Positions 2 to 20,415 of a stretch of 40,030 nt of DNA are shown piece after piece (position 1 is the stretch's first letter; each line of letters starts with the position of its first letter). Location of the stretch: NCBI GenBank assembly GCA_001776775.1, contig MFDD01000001.1:1804-41833 (forward strand), in the 5' to 3' direction. Both the position numbers and the translations under genes were made by a program. Origin of the DNA: Candidatus Daviesbacteria bacterium RIFCSPHIGHO2_02_FULL_43_12 (GTDB taxonomy: Bacteria > Patescibacteriota > Microgenomatia > Daviesbacterales > UBA10151). The notes beneath the pieces were generated by a model. It worked only from the letters and a program-made list of their open reading frames with translations. It ran no database searches and was not told where the DNA came from.

Positions 2-3000
2 CATTTAAGGACTGAAGTAGATGACCTTGGGCGTCAGTTAACTCAGCTCGATACAGAAATAGCCGGAGCTGAAAGAGAGTATTATGACGCAGTAACTGCA
101 CTTGATCATAACAGCACTTTAGCAGCGTCTGAAAATATGCAATTGTTAAGGGAGAATAGATCAAGACTGGAAGAAGAACTAATCAAAGCTCAGCAGAGGT
201 CTAATGATAGATTAGGCATCGTTATTAGCGCGAGTACCCAAGCCGAGGCACAGCTAGGGCCAGCTCAAAATCCTCTTGCGGCGATCGTCAATGCGGTTAC
301 CGGAGGAGACAATAGAACTGCTGCCGAGCTAGCCGAGGATGCGACCAGAGTTGCTCGTGAGTCAGTTGACAATACGGTGGTCCGGGAGGAAGTAACTTCG
401 GCTCGTTTGGCAGCTCAGGCAACAGAGGACCGGGCTGAAGCGGCAGCCTTAACTACCCAGGCAGATGACCTTGCTAGTGGGTCGTCCGGACATGCTGAAC
501 TAAATCGTCTTCTTTCAGAGGAAACGCAGCTAGACCAGAAAATAGCAGAAGCCTCGGCTAAGCTGCAGGCTGCCCAAAAACGGCTTGGCATTGATCACAG
601 TTATGAGAACGACAAACTGGTATCTGATTTAAGAGCAGAAGTAGCAGCACTAGAAAAAGCAAAAACAACACTGAATGAACAACTTGCCAAACTTGAGAAA
701 GAAGTGGGTGATGCTGATATTGCCAGAGCGCGCCAGACTGCCACTGTTGTTGCTAACCCGGGAGCCGGATCAGCCGTAACGCTAGGTCCTAATGCAGAGA
801 CACCAACTTCGGGTACCCAAGCTATACCAGATAGGCCAGTAGCAGTACCAACCGCGGTCGATAATGCCGCCAGAGAGGCCGAGCTGCGGGCTCAGGCCAG
901 GGTAAGGGATGAAGCCGCCCGTCAAGCCGAGCAACAAGCTGCCGAGGCAGCCCAAGGGGCAGAACAGTTGGCCAGACAACCAGAAGTCGTTGCTGCTATT
1001 CCAGTTAGTCCTGCCGCCGCTACCCCGCCCAAGAAAAGTTTCCTAACCAAGATTACAGAGGCGATCATTGGTAAACCAACTGAGTATGCAGTCGAAAGAG
1101 AGGTCCAGGCTGATGGTCAAACATTACTAAAGGTCTCCTTTATTAATGGCAGATCCGGTAAGCTACAATCCTTTCCTATTGCAGTTGAAGGCTGGTTTAA
1201 CCCTGACGAATCTCAGGTACAGTCAATCTTGAAAAACCTTAACAAAAGCGAGATATCTAATGCAAAAAAGGCCGAGTTTGAGCAGGCCTTACGCCAACTA
1301 AAACCTCCATATGCTGATAAAATAGATCAGCTGGTGGCAATCCTTGAGGATGGAGCTACAAGTAAGGATAAAAAGATCCTGGATACGGTGAGAAAGGATC
1401 TAGCTAAACTAAGAAGAGCAAATGACATACCCACTGTTTTAGATAATACGATACTTGACAGGGCTAGCCAGGCAGCGGGGATAATAGATCTTCCCGGCGA
1501 TTTACCTCCAAAATTACATGCTGTTATTGTTAGCTTAAAGGATCAGGCAGCAGTAGAGCGGATTCCTTTAGCCGGGGTAAAGCCGGCACTTCAGGAGGTT
1601 GCGTCAGTAGCCGAAGAGGTAGCGGGAGCTGCCAAGGCCAGGTCACAGCAGTTAAAAGTCAGAGAAAATGCCCTCAGTCAGGTCCGTAAACTACATGACG
1701 AAGCCGATCAGGTGGTCGCCAAAAGAGCAGCGCTTGCAGGCAGCTCTGCCGATACCACGTCCTTGGGTCAGGCTGAAAAAAGACTTAGAGACAGGGCAGA
1801 TGAATTTGCTGCCAAGGCCCAGCAAGCCAAACAGGTGATTGACGAGATCGAACAACAACATCCGGGTGTAGTCCGGTCTGGCACATCAGCCGATAACCGC
1901 AGTCTGGCCAGACAATCAGCTGATGAATATGCTCTGGCTATTGCAGAAAGAGACAGGCTAGCAACTGTTCCTGTTTCCCAGGAAGTTTTTGACAATGCAA
2001 ATGCAGCTGTGGCACAGGCTAAAGCTCAAGCCGATCAGGCAGCAGCCCAGGTTGCCCAGGACAGCAAAAATCCCTTCCAAAAAGCCTGGGATGCAGTTTT
2101 TAATAGGGGCAAAGCTCCAGATGCACCCGCAACGGTAGTAGATAGTGCTACTACTCACCCGGTTACACCAGTTGTTAAAACAGCCAAGCTCTCCAAGGAA
2201 GAGCTTCGAGCTCAGGCCCAAAATGCCGAAGCCGAATTGGCAGCTGCTGATTCTAAATACACAGAAGCTTATCAAGCCGCTGAGAAGAGTCGGTCTGAGC
2301 TAGCTGTTGCCTACGCTGACTATAGTGAGATTAAAGTTCAAGGAGGTGTAGTACCTCCGGATATTGATAATAGGTATCAGTCAGCTAGTAGTAACTATGC
2401 GTTAGCTTCACAGAGATTAGACTCCGCAATAGATTCAGCTAACAAAGCTGTTCAGGTAGCCCAGGCAGCTAACCAGGCATTGGCCGATGCTGAAAAAAAT
2501 CCCTTCCAAAAAGCCTGGGAATCGGTCTTTGGCAAAAAACCGCCTGCAAATGGCACTACTCCTGTAAATGTCGCACCTAAGCCAGCCGCCCAAGTTGCCC
2601 AGACAGTGGACCAACAGACCTCAAAAATCTCGGTTACTTTGGGAACTACCAGAGTCCAAGGTGACTTAAAAATCAGTGACCCTGCCCTAGCAGCTACTCC
2701 TCCAGTCACGATAGATGGGATGGGTCTTAAATTTAAGGGTCAAGATGCCTGGCATCAGGGTAAATATAGTGTGGCCTTGACTGATGGAGTATCTGGCGCA
2801 ACAGATGAACAAGGAACGGTTATATTAGCTCAGGATACAGCCAGATTTGCAACAAATCTGCTGGATCGGGCTGTCGCAGATTTTAATCAACATGGAGACT
2901 TAGGCCAGTCGATAGCTTTTATAAACGAAGAGGTCAAACGGTATGAAGCTGGAGTAGCCTCTCGGGGGGCAAGTGTGGCTACGACCTTGAGCGCAGCAGG

Positions 3001-5818
3001 GCAGTTTGGGGACAAGCTGGTGACTATCAGGGTAGGAGATTCTCCGATGAGCTTGGTTCGAGGAAACCAGGTGGTGGAATTAAGCCCAGCATTAGAGCAG
3101 CCCAAGGGTTTCTTTGGTAAGTTGCTCTCTTGGGGTAAAGACGAATCTGAATATCAACTTCTAGGTCCCAAGATCACCAGTAATCCAAAACAAATAGGTA
3201 GATCAGTGTCTAATCCCAGAATAGATGTATATCAGTTACAGGAAGGAGATAAAATCATTATTAGATCAGATGGAGCAGATAGTTTAGGCATTGGTCATGT
3301 GGCTATTGGAGCTAGTGATGCAGCCGATTTTCAGGCTAAGGCAGGTGCGGTGGTAGGAGGTTTTCGGCTCAATGCAGATGGAACGGCTGTGTCAGGCATA
3401 CCAGACGACGCTTCTTTTATCGGGATGTTTATAGGCAAAACCCAGACAGGAGACGTGACGCAGCAAATAGCAGGACAGATTAAGCCAGAAAATATTAGAG
3501 TCAGAAACATTAACAACAGCCCTACTCAAAATCCTATCCAAAAGTTTATCGCTGCTAAGCCTGCAAAACTGGCTGATGATGCAGTAGTGATTGGTCAGTC
3601 GGCAAATCTGGGGCTTTCTAAAGACAATAACCTATCTAAGTATCTTATAACCTCGCAAGATAGTGCTGCTACTGGGCGCTATAGTGCAGTCATCACTGAT
3701 GGGGCAGGGTCTGGGCTGGATTCGACTGACTATGGAACAAGGGAGCTTAGTCGTAAAGCTGCCGTGGAAGCTAGGAATATTGCCGACCAGGTTTACCTGG
3801 ATGCTCGTTCGGCTGACGACGCAGCTAATCTACTTTCAGACAGACTCTATAATATGTCAGCTCAAGCCGGAATATTAGGGAACCAGACCACCATCATGAC
3901 GGCGATGGTCGTTGATGGAAAACTGGTTGCCGGTAGCTTTGGTGATTCACACCTTTATATAGTCAGAGGTGGTAAAGTCATATCTTTGACAGATAGGCTT
4001 AAGACAACGCATTTCGGACAAGAAGTTGCTCCGCCCAAAGTTATCATAGAACCCCTCCAAATGGGAGATAAAGTCTTTATTTCCTCCGATGGCTTTCCTC
4101 TAGTACGAAACTATGAAAAAATAATGCGTCAGGCAGAGTCTGCTGACGAGTTTACACTTGCTTTGCAAAATCAGCTTAGTCAGGACTTAAAAGCTTTTAG
4201 TAATGCTACTAAGACAGATGATGTTGTCGCAACCCCTATTTTTTACGGAAAACCGAGTCTTTCCCTGTCTGACCGTCTGTCAAAGTTGTTTTCACCTATT
4301 AATTCCAAACTACCAGATTACAAAATTGTAAGGTATGTTCCTTTGGAGGTGGATCTAGGCAATATTGTAGGAGGCTTTGAAGTGATGAGTAATGCTCTAG
4401 CGAACGGTTCACAAGTTGTGGTTTTGACCAGTAATCGCCAGGGAGTTTTGCAGAGTATATTATTGCCTCGTAAATTCAGAGATTTCACCGAGAATGATGT
4501 AAGCGCTGTGCTTGATGAGTTGAGACAAAAGGATGTTGATGACAAAGTTGTAACGGCAATTGGAAAAAAGCTTAGCCTGGATGTCAGAGAGAACCAAGGG
4601 TATATAGAGGCTCCCTTTATTGATATTAACGTACTACCCATGATAACAGGTTATAGACCCTCTACACCAGTTCCTCATGTCACCAGGAATGCTCAGGTCA
4701 CAGCTTTAGATGTAGTAGATCCAAGCTTGCAGCCTCGTGAGCCAGTCCTGGTTCGTGGTATTACGTCCGAAACACCAAGAACAAAACCTCTTTTCAGTGA
4801 GAAAGTTACAGCAGTCCCTGCTTCCGGGTACAAGATGGCCAGCAAGATCTATAAGCTGGCTGACCAGTTTGGCGGAGATCAAATTCCAGCAGAGGAGATC
4901 AAAAAAGAGCTGGAGACCACAGATGTTATTAGTCCACAAGGGTTTCAGGTCAAAGATAAGGTGGTCCTGACTACAGGCGAAAACGGGGCCTTAACAGCTG
5001 CCATCCCGGTCGGTAGGTACGCACTGTCAGTACATCCGGTGCCCGGGATAGAATTTTTGGGAATCCCCGAGCAGGTGATCATCACTCCCAAGCAGGGTTT
5101 GAAAATATTTGTCGGAGTGAATAAATTTGATATTAGTCAATCCGCGAAAATATCCGCTGTCGCAGGGATTCCCACCAATGATGGCAAGCTGACGATTCAG
5201 CTATTTTCAGACCAAAATCGCAATGGCAAGCGTGATTCTGGTGAGCAGTTATTAAAATGGGCAGGAGTCACCTTTCTCGCCGACCAGCAATATGCCTTTA
5301 AGGAGATTAAGCTGCTTAGTGGTTGGAACTTGATCGGCTTTTCGGGTTTACCGGAAGGCATGACCAAGGCTTCGGAGGTGATCCAATCGATCAATAGTGG
5401 AGGTGGACAGGCAACTACAATTTCCCGATTGGTTAGTGGCAAGTGGCAAGAATATATCTCTCGGGGTAACGAAGTTTTTGGTAAGGATTTTAAAATCGAA
5501 AGTGGCCAGGGGTATTTCATCAGAAGCCAGGCAAAATCCACCTGGACTATCAAAGCCAAGCCCTCAGAGGAAACCAAGGTTAGTATCAAACCTGGATGGA
5601 ATGTTATCTCTGCTCCTGCGAGTGGTCAAGCCGGAGTAGATACACTCCTGGATCCCCAAGTCGAAAAAGACTCCCTGGTGGAAAGATTTGATTCTGGTCT
5701 GTGGGAGGCCTATCTTCGCCTCAGCAAAGACATCTATGGTAATGAATTTAGCCTGGAGCCTTTTAAAGGGTATCTGATATGGTCCAGAGCTCCTTATGCA
5801 ATACAATTTAAACAATGA
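2..5818 (+). CDS. Very large coiled-coil protein with two PP2C-like phosphatase domains and a C-terminal pair of GWN(L/V)I-type repeats; 5' end lies upstream of the window
   Basis: The frame of ORF 137..5818 stays open back to base 2 (HLRTEVDDLGRQLTQLDTEIAGAE...). PP2C-like motif sets: VALTDGVSGATDEQ / VGDSPMSLVRG / RSDGADSLG / DDASFIGMFIGK and VITDGAGSGLDSTDYG / FGDSHLYIVRGG / SSDGFPLV / DDVVATPIFYG. Ala/Gln/Glu-rich coiled-coil N-terminal half. Confidence 0.85.
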   Translation, partial: HLRTEVDDLGRQLTQLDTEIAGAEREYYDAVTALDHNSTLAASENMQLLRENRSRLEEELIKAQQRSNDRLGIVISASTQAEAQLGPAQNPLAAIVNAVTGGDNRTAAELAEDATRVARESVDNTVVREEVTSARLAAQATEDRAEAAALTTQADDLASGSSGHAELNRLLSEETQLDQKIAEASAKLQAAQKRLGIDHSYENDKLVSDLRAEVAALEKAKTTLNEQLAKLEKEVGDADIARARQTATVVANPGAGSAVTLGPNAETPTSGTQAIPDRPVAVPTAVDNAAREAELRAQARVRDEAARQAEQQAAEAAQGAEQLARQPEVVAAIPVSPAAATPPKKSFLTKITEAIIGKPTEYAVEREVQADGQTLLKVSFINGRSGKLQSFPIAVEGWFNPDESQVQSILKNLNKSEISNAKKAEFEQALRQLKPPYADKIDQLVAILEDGATSKDKKILDTVRKDLAKLRRANDIPTVLDNTILDRASQAAGIIDLPGDLPPKLHAVIVSLKDQAAVERIPLAGVKPALQEVASVAEEVAGAAKARSQQLKVRENALSQVRKLHDEADQVVAKRAALAGSSADTTSLGQAEKRLRDRADEFAAKAQQAKQVIDEIEQQHPGVVRSGTSADNRSLARQSADEYALAIAERDRLATVPVSQEVFDNANAAVAQAKAQADQAAAQVAQDSKNPFQKAWDAVFNRGKAPDAPATVVDSATTHPVTPVVKTAKLSKEELRAQAQNAEAELAAADSKYTEAYQAAEKSRSELAVAYADYSEIKVQGGVVPPDIDNRYQSASSNYALASQRLDSAIDSANKAVQVAQAANQALADAEKNPFQKAWESVFGKKPPANGTTPVNVAPKPAAQVAQTVDQQTSKISVTLGTTRVQGDLKISDPALAATPPVTIDGMGLKFKGQDAWHQGKYSVALTDGVSGATDEQGTVILAQDTARFATNLLDRAVADFNQHGDLGQSIAFINEEVKRYEAGVASRGASVATTLSAAGQFGDKLVTIRVGDSPMSLVRGNQVVELSPALEQPKGFFGKLLSWGKDESEYQLLGPKITSNPKQIGRSVSNPRIDVYQLQEGDKIIIRSDGADSLGIGHVAIGASDAADFQAKAGAVVGGFRLNADGTAVSGIPDDASFIGMFIGKTQTGDVTQQIAGQIKPENIRVRNINNSPTQNPIQKFIAAKPAKLADDAVVIGQSANLGLSKDNNLSKYLITSQDSAATGRYSAVITDGAGSGLDSTDYGTRELSRKAAVEARNIADQVYLDARSADDAANLLSDRLYNMSAQAGILGNQTTIMTAMVVDGKLVAGSFGDSHLYIVRGGKVISLTDRLKTTHFGQEVAPPKVIIEPLQMGDKVFISSDGFPLVRNYEKIMRQAESADEFTLALQNQLSQDLKAFSNATKTDDVVATPIFYGKPSLSLSDRLSKLFSPINSKLPDYKIVRYVPLEVDLGNIVGGFEVMSNALANGSQVVVLTSNRQGVLQSILLPRKFRDFTENDVSAVLDELRQKDVDDKVVTAIGKKLSLDVRENQGYIEAPFIDINVLPMITGYRPSTPVPHVTRNAQVTALDVVDPSLQPREPVLVRGITSETPRTKPLFSEKVTAVPASGYKMASKIYKLADQFGGDQIPAEEIKKELETTDVISPQGFQVKDKVVLTTGENGALTAAIPVGRYALSVHPVPGIEFLGIPEQVIITPKQGLKIFVGVNKFDISQSAKISAVAGIPTNDGKLTIQLFSDQNRNGKRDSGEQLLKWAGVTFLADQQYAFKEIKLLSGWNLIGFSGLPEGMTKASEVIQSINSGGGQATTISRLVSGKWQEYISRGNEVFGKDFKIESGQGYFIRSQAKSTWTIKAKPSEETKVSIKPGWNVISAPASGQAGVDTLLDPQVEKDSLVERFDSGLWEAYLRLSKDIYGNEFSLEPFKGYLIWSRAPYAIQFKQ

Positions 5819-6660
5819 TTAAGATTTTTGGAGCAATTATTATCGTAATCTTGATTCTGGGAGTCATCCTCGGGGTTAATTTATCCAGTCAAAAAACTAG
5901 CTACCGCTCTTTTGCCTCACCCAGCTTTGAACCCTTGGACGTCCGGATTAGTAACCAGACCGACAACTCCTTGTCAATTTCCTGGCTGACCAAAAATAAA
6001 ACAGTCGGTTTTATCGCTTACGGTACTACACCCGAGTTAGGGCAGGCTTATGCCGATGATCGGGACAAAGATGGACGAGCGGAGCGGTTGACGCATTATG
6101 TGACTTTAAAAAACCTGGATCCTCAAACGGAAATATATTTTCGGATTAGTTCGGGATCAGAGATTTTTGACCAGAAAGGCCAGCCTTTTCTGGTCAAAAC
6201 TGCTCCGACCTCGGGTACTACTCCGGAGGTAAGCTTGCCCTTGGCAGGGAGTGTGTCGGGTGCAGATCAAGACACTCTGATCTTTGCCCGGGTCGATTCG
6301 GGAAGCTTGATTTCCACTTATCCTAACTCTGGAGGAAGATGGGTCTTACCCTTAAACAACTCCCGGACGACTGACCTAAAAGCTTACCTTAAGCTTGGGG
6401 ACACCAGCCAAATTGCTCTGTTTGCTCAAACGAGTAACGGAACTACTCAGCAAAAGCTCATTCTTAAAAAAGCTCTTGAGGTGGTCAATCTCAATATTGT
6501 GCCAAATGCCACCCCGGAGGCAAGCTTCTTGGCAACCCTCACAGACCTGACTCTGTATGAGTCTCCAGCCACACAGATAACCGACCCCGAAGATTTGAAT
6601 AGAGATGGGCAGGTGAATATCTTTGATCGGATACTTAAATTACGGCAACTGCTTAAATGA
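5815..6660 (+). CDS. Membrane-anchored FN3-like protein with a C-terminal dockerin-like motif
   Basis: N-terminal TM (IFGAIIIVILILGVILGV); FN3/purple-acid-phosphatase-N-like segment (SLSISWLTKNKTVGFIAYGTTPELGQ...HYVTLKNLDPQTEIYFRI); C-terminal DLNRDGQVNIFDRILKLRQLL. Start codon overlaps the previous stop (ATGA). Confidence 0.8.
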   Translation: MIKIFGAIIIVILILGVILGVNLSSQKTSYRSFASPSFEPLDVRISNQTDNSLSISWLTKNKTVGFIAYGTTPELGQAYADDRDKDGRAERLTHYVTLKNLDPQTEIYFRISSGSEIFDQKGQPFLVKTAPTSGTTPEVSLPLAGSVSGADQDTLIFARVDSGSLISTYPNSGGRWVLPLNNSRTTDLKAYLKLGDTSQIALFAQTSNGTTQQKLILKKALEVVNLNIVPNATPEASFLATLTDLTLYESPATQITDPEDLNRDGQVNIFDRILKLRQLLK

Positions 6661-18362: not shown

Positions 18363-18436
18363 TGGCACGGGCGCAGGGACTTGAACCCCGAGTCGTGGAT
18401 TTGGAGTCCACTGGTTTACCATTAACCGACGCCCGT
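18363..18436 (-). tRNA. tRNA-Trp (anticodon CCA)
   Basis: ACGGGCG/CGCCCGT acceptor, D arm GGTT-AATGGTA-AACC, anticodon arm GTGGA-CTCCAAA-TCCAC, T arm CGGGG-TTCAAGT-CCCTG, encoded CCA end. Confidence 0.95.
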
Positions 18437-19090
18437 ATATTTCTTGCTGAAGGTATTATAGATTGAGTTTAATTCTAAAGCAATTTTGTAATCGTAATAT
18501 CTTACACTGATACTCCCTTTGTAACCTGATCTGGTGTTTTTGCCCGTATGAGGCTTAAGATAGCTTTTAGTAAACTGGGAAAGGGGGATTTTAGTAATTT
18601 GGGACCAGAATTCCTTTATTTCCTTATCGCTATGATATTCATGAATATGTACTAAAGCTCGAAACTTATGTTCCTCTAAAGAGAATCCCTTTCTAAGGGT
18701 GAGTAAGAATAAAGAAACCATCTTGGGATCCGAATTAACAAAAGTAACATAGCTTACATTCTTCTCCCCTTCGGCCCAAAAGAGAAATGAACATAATAGC
18801 TTACTTAAGTTTGTATCCAAGCTAATACCCTCGAGCATCTCACCTGCCCTTTGAAGGAATCCTTCCAGAACTTTTTGCCTCTTAGTTTGCTTAGTGACAT
18901 TCGCCTTGTGCTGACCTAAAACCTTCCTCTCTGCTAACCTCGCGAGAGCTTGGTCGTCAAGTCCTATGCTAGAAAGCCAATTGGAAGACGTGCTTTTTGC
19001 AATCTTTAAAAGATTTGAGATTTCATTAATGGAATAACCCAATTTACGAAGAAAAATAGCCTTTTCTTTTAAAGCCAAGGGATAAGCCAT
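18422..19090 (-). CDS. HTH + LAGLIDADG-like (homing endonuclease-type) protein, copy 1
   Basis: N-terminal HTH (YSINEISNLLKIAKSTSSNWL); core LCSFLFWAEGEKN...VNSDPKMVSLFLLTLRKGFSLEEHKFRALVHIHEYHSDKEIKEFWSQITKI shared with the ORF at 19674..20275. Stop codon lies inside tRNA-Trp. Confidence 0.65.
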   Translation of the reverse strand: MAYPLALKEKAIFLRKLGYSINEISNLLKIAKSTSSNWLSSIGLDDQALARLAERKVLGQHKANVTKQTKRQKVLEGFLQRAGEMLEGISLDTNLSKLLCSFLFWAEGEKNVSYVTFVNSDPKMVSLFLLTLRKGFSLEEHKFRALVHIHEYHSDKEIKEFWSQITKIPLSQFTKSYLKPHTGKNTRSGYKGSISVRYYDYKIALELNSIYNTFSKKYTGVG

Positions 19091-19158: not shown

Positions 19159-19329
19159 TTAGCCGAGTTTTTTGAACTCGTCGTGAGGAGTAGCCTTGCG
19201 GCATTTACGACAGTATTTATTCAGGGTTAGTTTGTCTTTGGTATTAACTGAGTTTTTTTGAGAAACATAATTTCTGCTTTTGCAGATAGAACATTCCAGT
19301 CCAAAGATCGATCGGTTATTTTTCGCCAT
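19159..19329 (-). CDS. rpmG: 50S ribosomal protein L33 (absent from supplied ORF track)
   Basis: My translation: MAKNNRSIFGLECSICKSRNYVSQKNSVNTKDKLTLNKYCRKCRKATPHDEFKKLG (56 aa), with CxxC pairs typical of L33. Confidence 0.93.
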   Translation of the reverse strand: MAKNNRSIFGLECSICKSRNYVSQKNSVNTKDKLTLNKYCRKCRKATPHDEFKKLG

Positions 19330-19389
19330 AGGTTCAGATTATATACCAGCCTCTCTCTTCGCGCAAGGGAAGACCTATTTCTTTTTTAG

Positions 19390-19655
19390 AGCCGAAGACG
19401 GGAATCGGACCCGTGACCTCGTTCTTCGCTTTTTACCTCTTCTTAATATTTCAATGCTTATAAAGAGGGCTAGACTGTATCTTTTCCCGTCTTTGACGGG
19501 AATCCTTGTCAGTCGTTCGGGCCCTGTCTTAGCCGGGCCACGGTCTCAATCTTGCATAGATCTTTAACCGTTATTCGGAATTCATTCCGATATTACTATC
19601 GGAATGGGCAATTAGCGATTACCAAGAACGCGCACTACCACTGTGCTACTTCGGC
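19390..19655 (-). tRNA. tRNA-Thr (anticodon GGU) interrupted by a group I intron; exons 19655-19621 and 19426-19390
   Basis: Spliced: GCCGAAG TA GCACAGTGGTAGTGC G CGTTC TTGGTAA GAACG AGGTC ACGGG TCCGATT CCCGT CTTCGGC T; full cloverleaf after removing 194 nt. Confidence 0.92.
19427..19620 (-). ncRNA. Group I self-splicing intron in tRNA-Thr anticodon loop
   Basis: P1 GGU|AAU-CGCUA-AUUGCC with U.G wobble at the 5' splice site; P2 CATTCCGATA-GTAA-TATCGGAATG; P7 GACTG...CAGTC with AAGATACAGTC (S-like element); P8 CCCGTC-AAA-GACGGG; P9 CCTCTT...AAGAGG; 3'-terminal G. Confidence 0.88.
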
Positions 19656-19673: not shown

Positions 19674-20275
19674 TTAGCAGTATTTTTCAAAATAATCCTT
19701 AGACCAAAGTATGATTTGTTCTAAAAGCTTTTTGTTACTGACTAAGATGGTTATTGTACCGTATTTACTCTTATTTTTGTATGTCCCTAGTTTTTGGGTC
19801 TTATTACTGGTGAATAGAAATTTTTCTCGAGTATTCCTGTATGATTACTCCAGAATAGTAGGCTATCCTTGTATATTAAATCATCAAATATATTAATCCA
19901 AGCTCTGATTTTCTCTTCTTTAACTCCGCAGACCTGTCTAAGAAATCTTAGGAACAAGTTAATAATTTTAGGATCGGAATTTGCTAACTTGACTCCAAAT
20001 CTATCCTTTTTTGTTCCTTCGCCCATATAGAGTGCAATCCCTAAAGCGAGGAGCTCTTTATCCTCATAAGCCTCAAGATCGCTTATCTTGAAAGGATCTC
20101 CCGCAGGATTCTTTAAGGCGTAGATAGCTTCGCTACGTGATCTACTAGGAATACTATACTTTTTCATCCAGTAGGCAACCTTGTGATGCGAGACTTTTTG
20201 ATTTAAGGCAATCTGTTGCATTGATAAACCTGAAGAATAGAGAGATAACAGCTGTTTTTTATCAATAAAGGGCAT
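19674..20275 (-). pseudogene. HTH + LAGLIDADG-like (homing endonuclease-type) protein, copy 2, apparently -1 frameshifted near 19791-19795
   Basis: LLALGIALYMGEGTKKDRFGVKLANSDPKIINLFLRFLRQVCGVKEEKIRAWINIFDDLIYKDSLLFWSNHTGI. ORF ends RPKN*, but the -1 frame continues TYKNKSKYGTITILVSNKKLLEQIILWSKDYFEKYC*, which aligns with the C-terminus of copy 1. Confidence 0.65.
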
Positions 20276-20343: not shown

Positions 20344-20415
20344 AGCCGCAGGGGAGTTTTGCAATCCCGACTCACGCTTTACAAAAGCGTCACTCTACTT
20401 CTGAGTTACTGCGGC
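20344..20415 (-). tRNA. tRNA-Thr (anticodon UGU) with atypical elbow residues
   Basis: GCCGCAG/CTGCGGC acceptor; D arm ACTC-AGAAGTA-GAGT; anticodon ACGCT-TTTGTAA-AGCGT; T region GGGATTGCAAAACTCCC; no encoded CCA. Confidence 0.88.

Follow-up and report, generated by a model that had tools for sequence, protein, structure and literature searches.

In the tRNA-Leu(UAA) gene, the group I intron lies between positions 34 and 35. Nakagawa et al. (preprint, 2025; 10.1101/2025.07.03.662931) reportedly describe such introns in tRNA genes of Patescibacteria. In the tRNA-Ile(CAU) intron of Azoarcus, the triplet at the end of the 5' exon is the anticodon CAU (PMC6274277), which would place that insertion at 36/37, the same position as in the gene described here. 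Lui et al. 2021 (PMC8172020) mention that CPR tRNAs contain group I introns, and CPR rRNA introns carry LAGLIDADG endonuclease genes inside them (Tsurumaki et al. 2024, PMC11270868). In the collaborative homing of phages, an ORF-less intron and a free-standing endonuclease share the same site (reviewed in PMC3984707).

Here we analyze an interrupted tRNA gene in a 40,030-nt stretch of DNA (the window) from Candidatus Daviesbacteria bacterium RIFCSPHIGHO2_02_FULL_43_12, an ultra-small CPR bacterium. With high confidence, we identify the insert as a group I intron; it separates positions 36 and 37 of the sole tRNA-Thr(GGU) gene detected in this genome. An essential tRNA of a minimal genome would depend on a ribozyme missed by the standard Rfam model.

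The interrupted tRNA-Thr(GGU) gene and the fold of its insert

The tRNA-Thr(GGU) gene extends from 19655 to 19390 on the minus strand, and its anticodon loop is split between positions 36 and 37 by a 194-nt insert (19620-19427), with the junctions GGU↓AAUCG...AAGCG↓AAGAACG. When introns were allowed, ARAGORN reported tRNA-Thr(ggt) and placed an intron of 194 nt behind gene nucleotide 35, which is tRNA position 36; the exons joined without the insert form a 72-mer that ARAGORN folds into a complete tRNA-Thr(GGU) cloverleaf. A preliminary description of this DNA had proposed the same insert and junction without naming a strand, as well as the recovery of a full tRNA-Thr cloverleaf upon removal of the insert, and both claims are borne out, with the feature on the minus strand. 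Its expectation that an annotation pipeline would miss the tRNA was also correct: neither ARAGORN without introns nor Rfam cmscan found the interrupted gene. The 95-aa ORF that it regarded as spurious is indeed a mechanical reading frame. The features are listed in Table 1.

Table 1. Features of the interrupted tRNA-Thr(GGU) gene and its neighbors, in window coordinates; helix strands are given as RNA and arrows mark the splice junction.
Feature	Position	Strand	Remarks
tRNA-Trp(CCA)	18363-18436	-	uninterrupted; 3' neighbor of HE1
HE1, paralogue of HE2	18422-19090	-	final 15 nt lie within the 5' part of tRNA-Trp
Spurious 95-aa ORF	19280-19567	+	mechanical; antisense to exon 2 and intron
tRNA-Thr(GGU) 3' exon	19390-19426	-	starts A37 A38; T arm and acceptor 3' strand
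Group I intron	19427-19620	-	194 nt, ORF-less; starts AAUCG, ends GCG; terminal (omega) G at 19427
P9 (CCUCUU/AAGAGG)	19436-19468	-	compensated in G007, absent in G040
J8/7 AAGAUA and P7 3' strand CAGUC (S-like element)	19473-19483	-	sequence; P7 covariation
P8 (UUCCCGUC/GACGGGAA)	19484-19502	-	covariation
P3 3' strand GGA	19503-19505	-	covariation
P7 5' strand GACUG	19510-19514	-	covariation
P6 (GGCCC/GGGCC)	19520-19539	-	97.5% paired; all 5 pairs with compensatory changes
P4 (ACGG/CCGU) enclosing P5 (GAUCU/AGAUU)	19540-19571	-	covariation
P3 5' strand UCC	19577-19579	-	pairs with 19503-19505, crosses P7; C-G to U-A compensation
P2	19583-19606	-	10 bp, GNRA-type GUAA cap
Internal guide sequence AUUGCC (P1 3' strand)	19607-19612	-	pairs with GGU↓AAU; U36.G at the splice site
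tRNA-Thr(GGU) 5' exon	19621-19655	-	positions 1-36, ends in anticodon GGU
HE2 ORF (putative endonuclease)	19787-20275	-	131 nt 5' of tRNA-Thr(GGU); N-terminal HTH and LAGLIDADG-like motif; frameshifted near its end
tRNA-Thr(UGU)	20344-20415	-	uninterrupted; upstream neighbor of HE2; Rfam match

The genome contains 41 uninterrupted tRNA matches, 40 of which were typed by ARAGORN; the remaining one is the tRNA-Thr(UGU) of the window, which Rfam detects at 51 bits and ARAGORN does not. Thr(GGU) is absent from these 41 matches and Thr(CGU) is present. This leaves the interrupted gene as the sole Thr(GGU) gene detected in the genome, whose completeness is rated 100%, and ACC codons would consequently have no cognate tRNA without splicing.

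The elements named in the preliminary description, namely P1 with a U.G pair, a 10-bp P2 with a GUAA cap, P7 (GACUG/CAGUC) with the AAGAUACAGUC element, P8, P9, and a terminal G, are all present. With regard to the features of subgroup IC3 that we looked at, the window intron has a GNRA-capped P2 and no clear GNRA loop on P9. U36 pairs with G12 of the guide, giving the U.G pair at the 5' splice site, and the minimum free energy of the intron corresponds to z = -6.4 relative to dinucleotide shuffles.

Covariation was assessed in an alignment of 91 distinct intron sequences, made with a model that contains the nested structure only and leaves P3 out. Across P3-P8, 94.8% of the core cells are paired, individual helices ranging from 86.6% (P3) to 100% (P7), and double-sided compensatory changes occur in 24 of the 27 core pairs and in all six helices. 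The covariation score was 0.377, compared with 0.116 for shuffled controls and at most 0.073 for slid controls. P3 is small, with only 3-4 canonical pairs; since it lies outside the model used for the alignment, its covariation provides independent support, and its change from C-G to U-A is seen in the window and in the related genome G007. The central claim of the preliminary description, a group I intron following anticodon position 36, is thus upheld by the compensatory changes in six helices, together with the terminal G of 115/115 introns and the empty sites described below.

The covariance-model check that had been suggested gave the opposite result. RF00028 produced no match to the window intron at E<=10, the intron was also absent from the RF00028 match list of its own genome, and 14 further members of the intron family all scored under the gathering threshold of 50 bits; the covariation nonetheless supports a group I fold. 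RF00028 does recover rRNA introns and one tRNA-Phe intron. Because the core covaries, we regard the failure as a blind spot of the model rather than as a missing group I fold, and the class assignment rests on structure, independent of RF00028. With introns allowed, ARAGORN misnames the host in about half of the listed loci, as Arg(gcg), His(gtg), Pro(ggg), and others. We rejected these hosts: in each case the gene is this Thr(GGU) gene, and ARAGORN has shifted the junction into the intron, which the intron's own GCG or GTG end permits. Since Rfam is blind to the intron and ARAGORN misnames the host, the tRNA inventories compiled for Patescibacteria are distorted.

From established group I chemistry, we infer that the intron is self-splicing. 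In the precursor, the anticodon GGU would pair with the guide sequence of the intron, so that the U36.G pair marks the 5' splice site. An exogenous guanosine occupying P7 would attack after U36; the freed 3'-OH of U36 would then attack after the last intron G, so that the exons join and the tRNA matures. The frameshift in the neighboring HE2 gene would suit an insertion that has likewise died, leaving a tRNA pseudogene in which splicing is lost, but this is very unlikely given that the catalytic elements and both exons are all intact and conserved, and that no other Thr(GGU) gene was found in a genome rated 100% complete. Still less probable, to the point of being negligible, is a protein-spliced intron of the archaeal or eukaryal bulge-helix-bulge type. 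Its canonical 37/38 position is close to this one in the anticodon loop; however, the actual insertion is at 36/37, and the length of the insert, the complete covarying P3-P8 core, the P7/J8-7 element, the U.G splice pair, and the terminal G all contradict it. Bulge-helix-bulge tRNA introns are not known in bacteria.

Distribution of the intron family

Within the GTDB family of this bacterium, the genomes G007 and G040 have homologous introns of 191 nt and 170 nt at the identical site, to which the window intron is 79% and 71% identical, respectively. In 20 other genomes of this family, the gene is intronless: the 5' and 3' exon sequences are contiguous and the tRNA halves abut, mostly in the same tRNA-Thr/tRNA-Trp neighborhood.

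A scan of 85,462 species genomes with an exact core pattern recovered the intron core from at least 118 contigs, almost all of which bear Patescibacteria or CPR titles. The 118 listed loci with a readable 5' exon include the window and its two family relatives, and one locus is counted twice (L002 = L069); in every one of them, the 5' exon ends in ...TGGT of tRNA-Thr(GGU). Among the listed matches, 115 introns were fully delimited. All 115 have a terminal G and an xGCC guide and are ORF-less, and their length is 170-243 nt (median, 192). In an even sample of 290 genomes of the phylum, the core model found 14 carriers in 12 families, a patchy occurrence of approximately 5%. The intron is a member of a Patescibacteria-wide family that is restricted, as far as found, to position 36/37 of tRNA-Thr(GGU). 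With at least 118 contigs and one exact site, patchily occupied, the family offers a large comparative set for studying group I mobility. The preliminary description suggested that Thr(GGU) might be a new host. The host itself is confirmed, but its novelty is tempered by the number of contigs and by the 2025 preprint on Patescibacteria tRNA introns, which may well include this family.

In the genome of the window, a search with model R1 matched only the window intron, the next best match having an E value of 0.6. RF00028 gave a weak match (28.7 bits) at G000:C8:46731-46958 (L155) in an apparent initiator tRNA-fMet gene, which ARAGORN calls Leu(caa) with a 221-nt intron. Three further RF00028 matches in this genome, one of them above the cut-off, fall within 23S rRNA gene sequence (L152-L154; G000:C11:16671-16935, G000:C12:38059-38362, and G000:C12:38569-38871).

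A viral scan for the intron core yielded one related intron and two chance matches; the former, on an IMG/VR contig (L149, ~5936-6147, plus strand), has a related core scoring 52 bits with R1 and apparently splits a phage tape-measure gene. The Bacteroidota isolate Niastella populi carries a family intron in its tRNA-Thr(GGU) gene (L052, ~5196-5451, minus strand), with a tyrosine recombinase-like gene and a TraG/VirD4-like gene immediately after it. This copy was probably acquired by horizontal transfer on an integrative element. Assembly contamination is disfavored, as the 300-kb contig includes ORFs that by eye seem bacteroidotal. The same recombinase (50-67% identity, some partial) adjoins the intron-bearing tRNA-Thr(GGU) gene in several Patescibacteria (L037, L059, L070, L119, L120, L123, L124, L142, and L164), which suggests that the 3' end of tRNA-Thr(GGU) serves as an attachment site.

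The putative endonuclease gene HE2

HE2 homologues were found just 5' of the host tRNA, on the same strand, in 40 of the 118 listed intron loci and were missing from 78. The stop codon of the ORF is U8A9G10 of the tRNA in 15 of the 40 loci, and three ORFs extend past it. No HE2 was found at any of the 20 intronless tRNA-Thr(GGU) loci of the same GTDB family. Among the 290 sampled genomes, 7 of the 14 intron carriers (one remnant included) have an HE2-type gene beside tRNA-Thr(GGU), as opposed to 6 of the 276 intronless genomes. By chance, about 0.6 such co-occurrences would be expected rather than 7 (odds ratio 45; Fisher p = 1.6e-7, uncorrected for phylogeny). In contrast, intron divergence and HE2 divergence did not correlate across 24 loci (Mantel r = -0.09).

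HE2 is probably a nuclease, since it combines an HTH with a LAGLIDADG-like helix and has a confident model, weak LAGLIDADG_3 matches, and one fold match. The helix, LFGLGLGLYWGEG, is conserved in the family with an invariant GEG; Pfam LAGLIDADG_3 gave weak matches in 4 of 30 members (best E 0.0077). The predicted structure is confident (pLDDT 90), and Foldseek returned one moderate match, to the intein homing endonuclease 7qss (probability 1.00, E 0.05, TM 0.35). Run against PDB sequences, the HE2 profile yielded nothing beyond chance matches or weak ones in the HTH region, and a search of viral contigs for HE2 gave none. In the window copy of HE2, the motif GTYKNKSKYG, conserved at the C terminus, sits in another frame, suggesting that the gene is broken by a frameshift unless the metagenome assembly is in error there; the frameshift fits the decay expected after fixation.

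The HE2 profile also detects a wider group of ORFs. A same-strand tRNA lies directly downstream of 29 of its best 30 matches in the phylum (L183-L212), in 28 of them at a distance between -100 and +135 nt from where the ORF ends. The tRNA differs by subfamily: HE2 precedes Thr(GGU), and others precede Ile(UAU), Tyr, Gly, Thr(UGU), Ile(GAU), or Phe(GAA). The subfamily nearest HE2 was found solely at tRNA-Thr(GGU). HE1 has homologues in two loci of the same GTDB family (L010 and L011), in L011 directly 5' of tRNA-Trp. In L209, the tRNA-Phe(GAA) gene (1171-1459, minus strand) has a group I intron recognized by RF00028 at 63.9 bits, and an HE2-family ORF is located directly 5' of it. From their sequences and positions, we read the HE1/HE2-type ORFs as a family of putative free-standing homing endonucleases at tRNA edges.

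The arrangement of the genes, an ORF-less intron and a free-standing putative endonuclease gene at the same target gene, matches collaborative homing. Our tentative reading, to which we give about one chance in three, is that free-standing endonucleases of Patescibacteria with HTH and LAGLIDADG-like parts move by homing into the 5' edges of tRNA genes, the tRNA varying with the member and the ORF often ending inside the tRNA at U8A9G10, and that ORF-less group I introns exploit the enzyme; the intron partner would reside at tRNA-Thr(GGU) and perhaps also at tRNA-Phe(GAA). Both the endonuclease activity and the homing are inferred. There is a serious possibility, not far short of an even chance, that HE2 has no part in intron movement and is an independent selfish gene homing into tRNA 5' edges, in which case the intron would owe its spread to vertical inheritance, reverse splicing, or recombination involving the entire tRNA locus. 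Family members 5' of many intronless tRNAs (Ile, Tyr, Gly, Thr(UGU), and Trp), the six intronless tRNA-Thr(GGU) genes with HE2, the missing co-divergence, and the 78 intron loci devoid of HE2 all favor such independence, whereas the strong excess of co-occurrence at tRNA-Thr(GGU) and the confinement of the nearest subfamily to this gene speak against it. Since the divergences do not correlate and each element occurs alone, any partnership between intron and HE2 is loose, in the manner of phage collaborative homing. Under collaborative homing, the ORF-less intron family would probably spread, at least in part, with the help of the free-standing LAGLIDADG-like genes 5' of tRNA-Thr(GGU), and the helper gene in the window would be decaying by frameshift. 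The endonuclease-like genes at tRNA edges offer a specific, testable case of collaborative homing beyond phages.

Comparison with known systems

The window intron resembles the IC3 intron of Azoarcus tRNA-Ile(CAU): both are small ORF-less tRNA introns in which the anticodon, here GGU, is the 5'-exon triplet. In contrast to Azoarcus, the host is tRNA-Thr(GGU), the core is unrecognized by RF00028, P3 is short, the introns span 170-243 nt, and P9 is absent in one member. Introns of cyanobacterial and plastid tRNA-Leu(UAA), cyanobacterial tRNA-fMet, and proteobacterial tRNA-Arg(CCU) are likewise group I introns of the anticodon loop, in different hosts.

As in the collaborative homing of phages, an ORF-less intron is accompanied by a distinct putative endonuclease gene next to its host gene. 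Unlike the phage systems, the present one involves cellular tRNA genes of Patescibacteria and a LAGLIDADG-like family with predicted cleavage activity, and shows no co-divergence. Group I introns and LAGLIDADG genes are abundant in the same phylum, as the CPR rRNA introns illustrate; however, the putative endonuclease gene described here lies outside the intron and often overlaps the 5' end of the tRNA. The intron is thus ordinary in its class and notable in its extent: its kind is already known in Patescibacteria tRNAs, and the flanking-endonuclease arrangement is possibly new.
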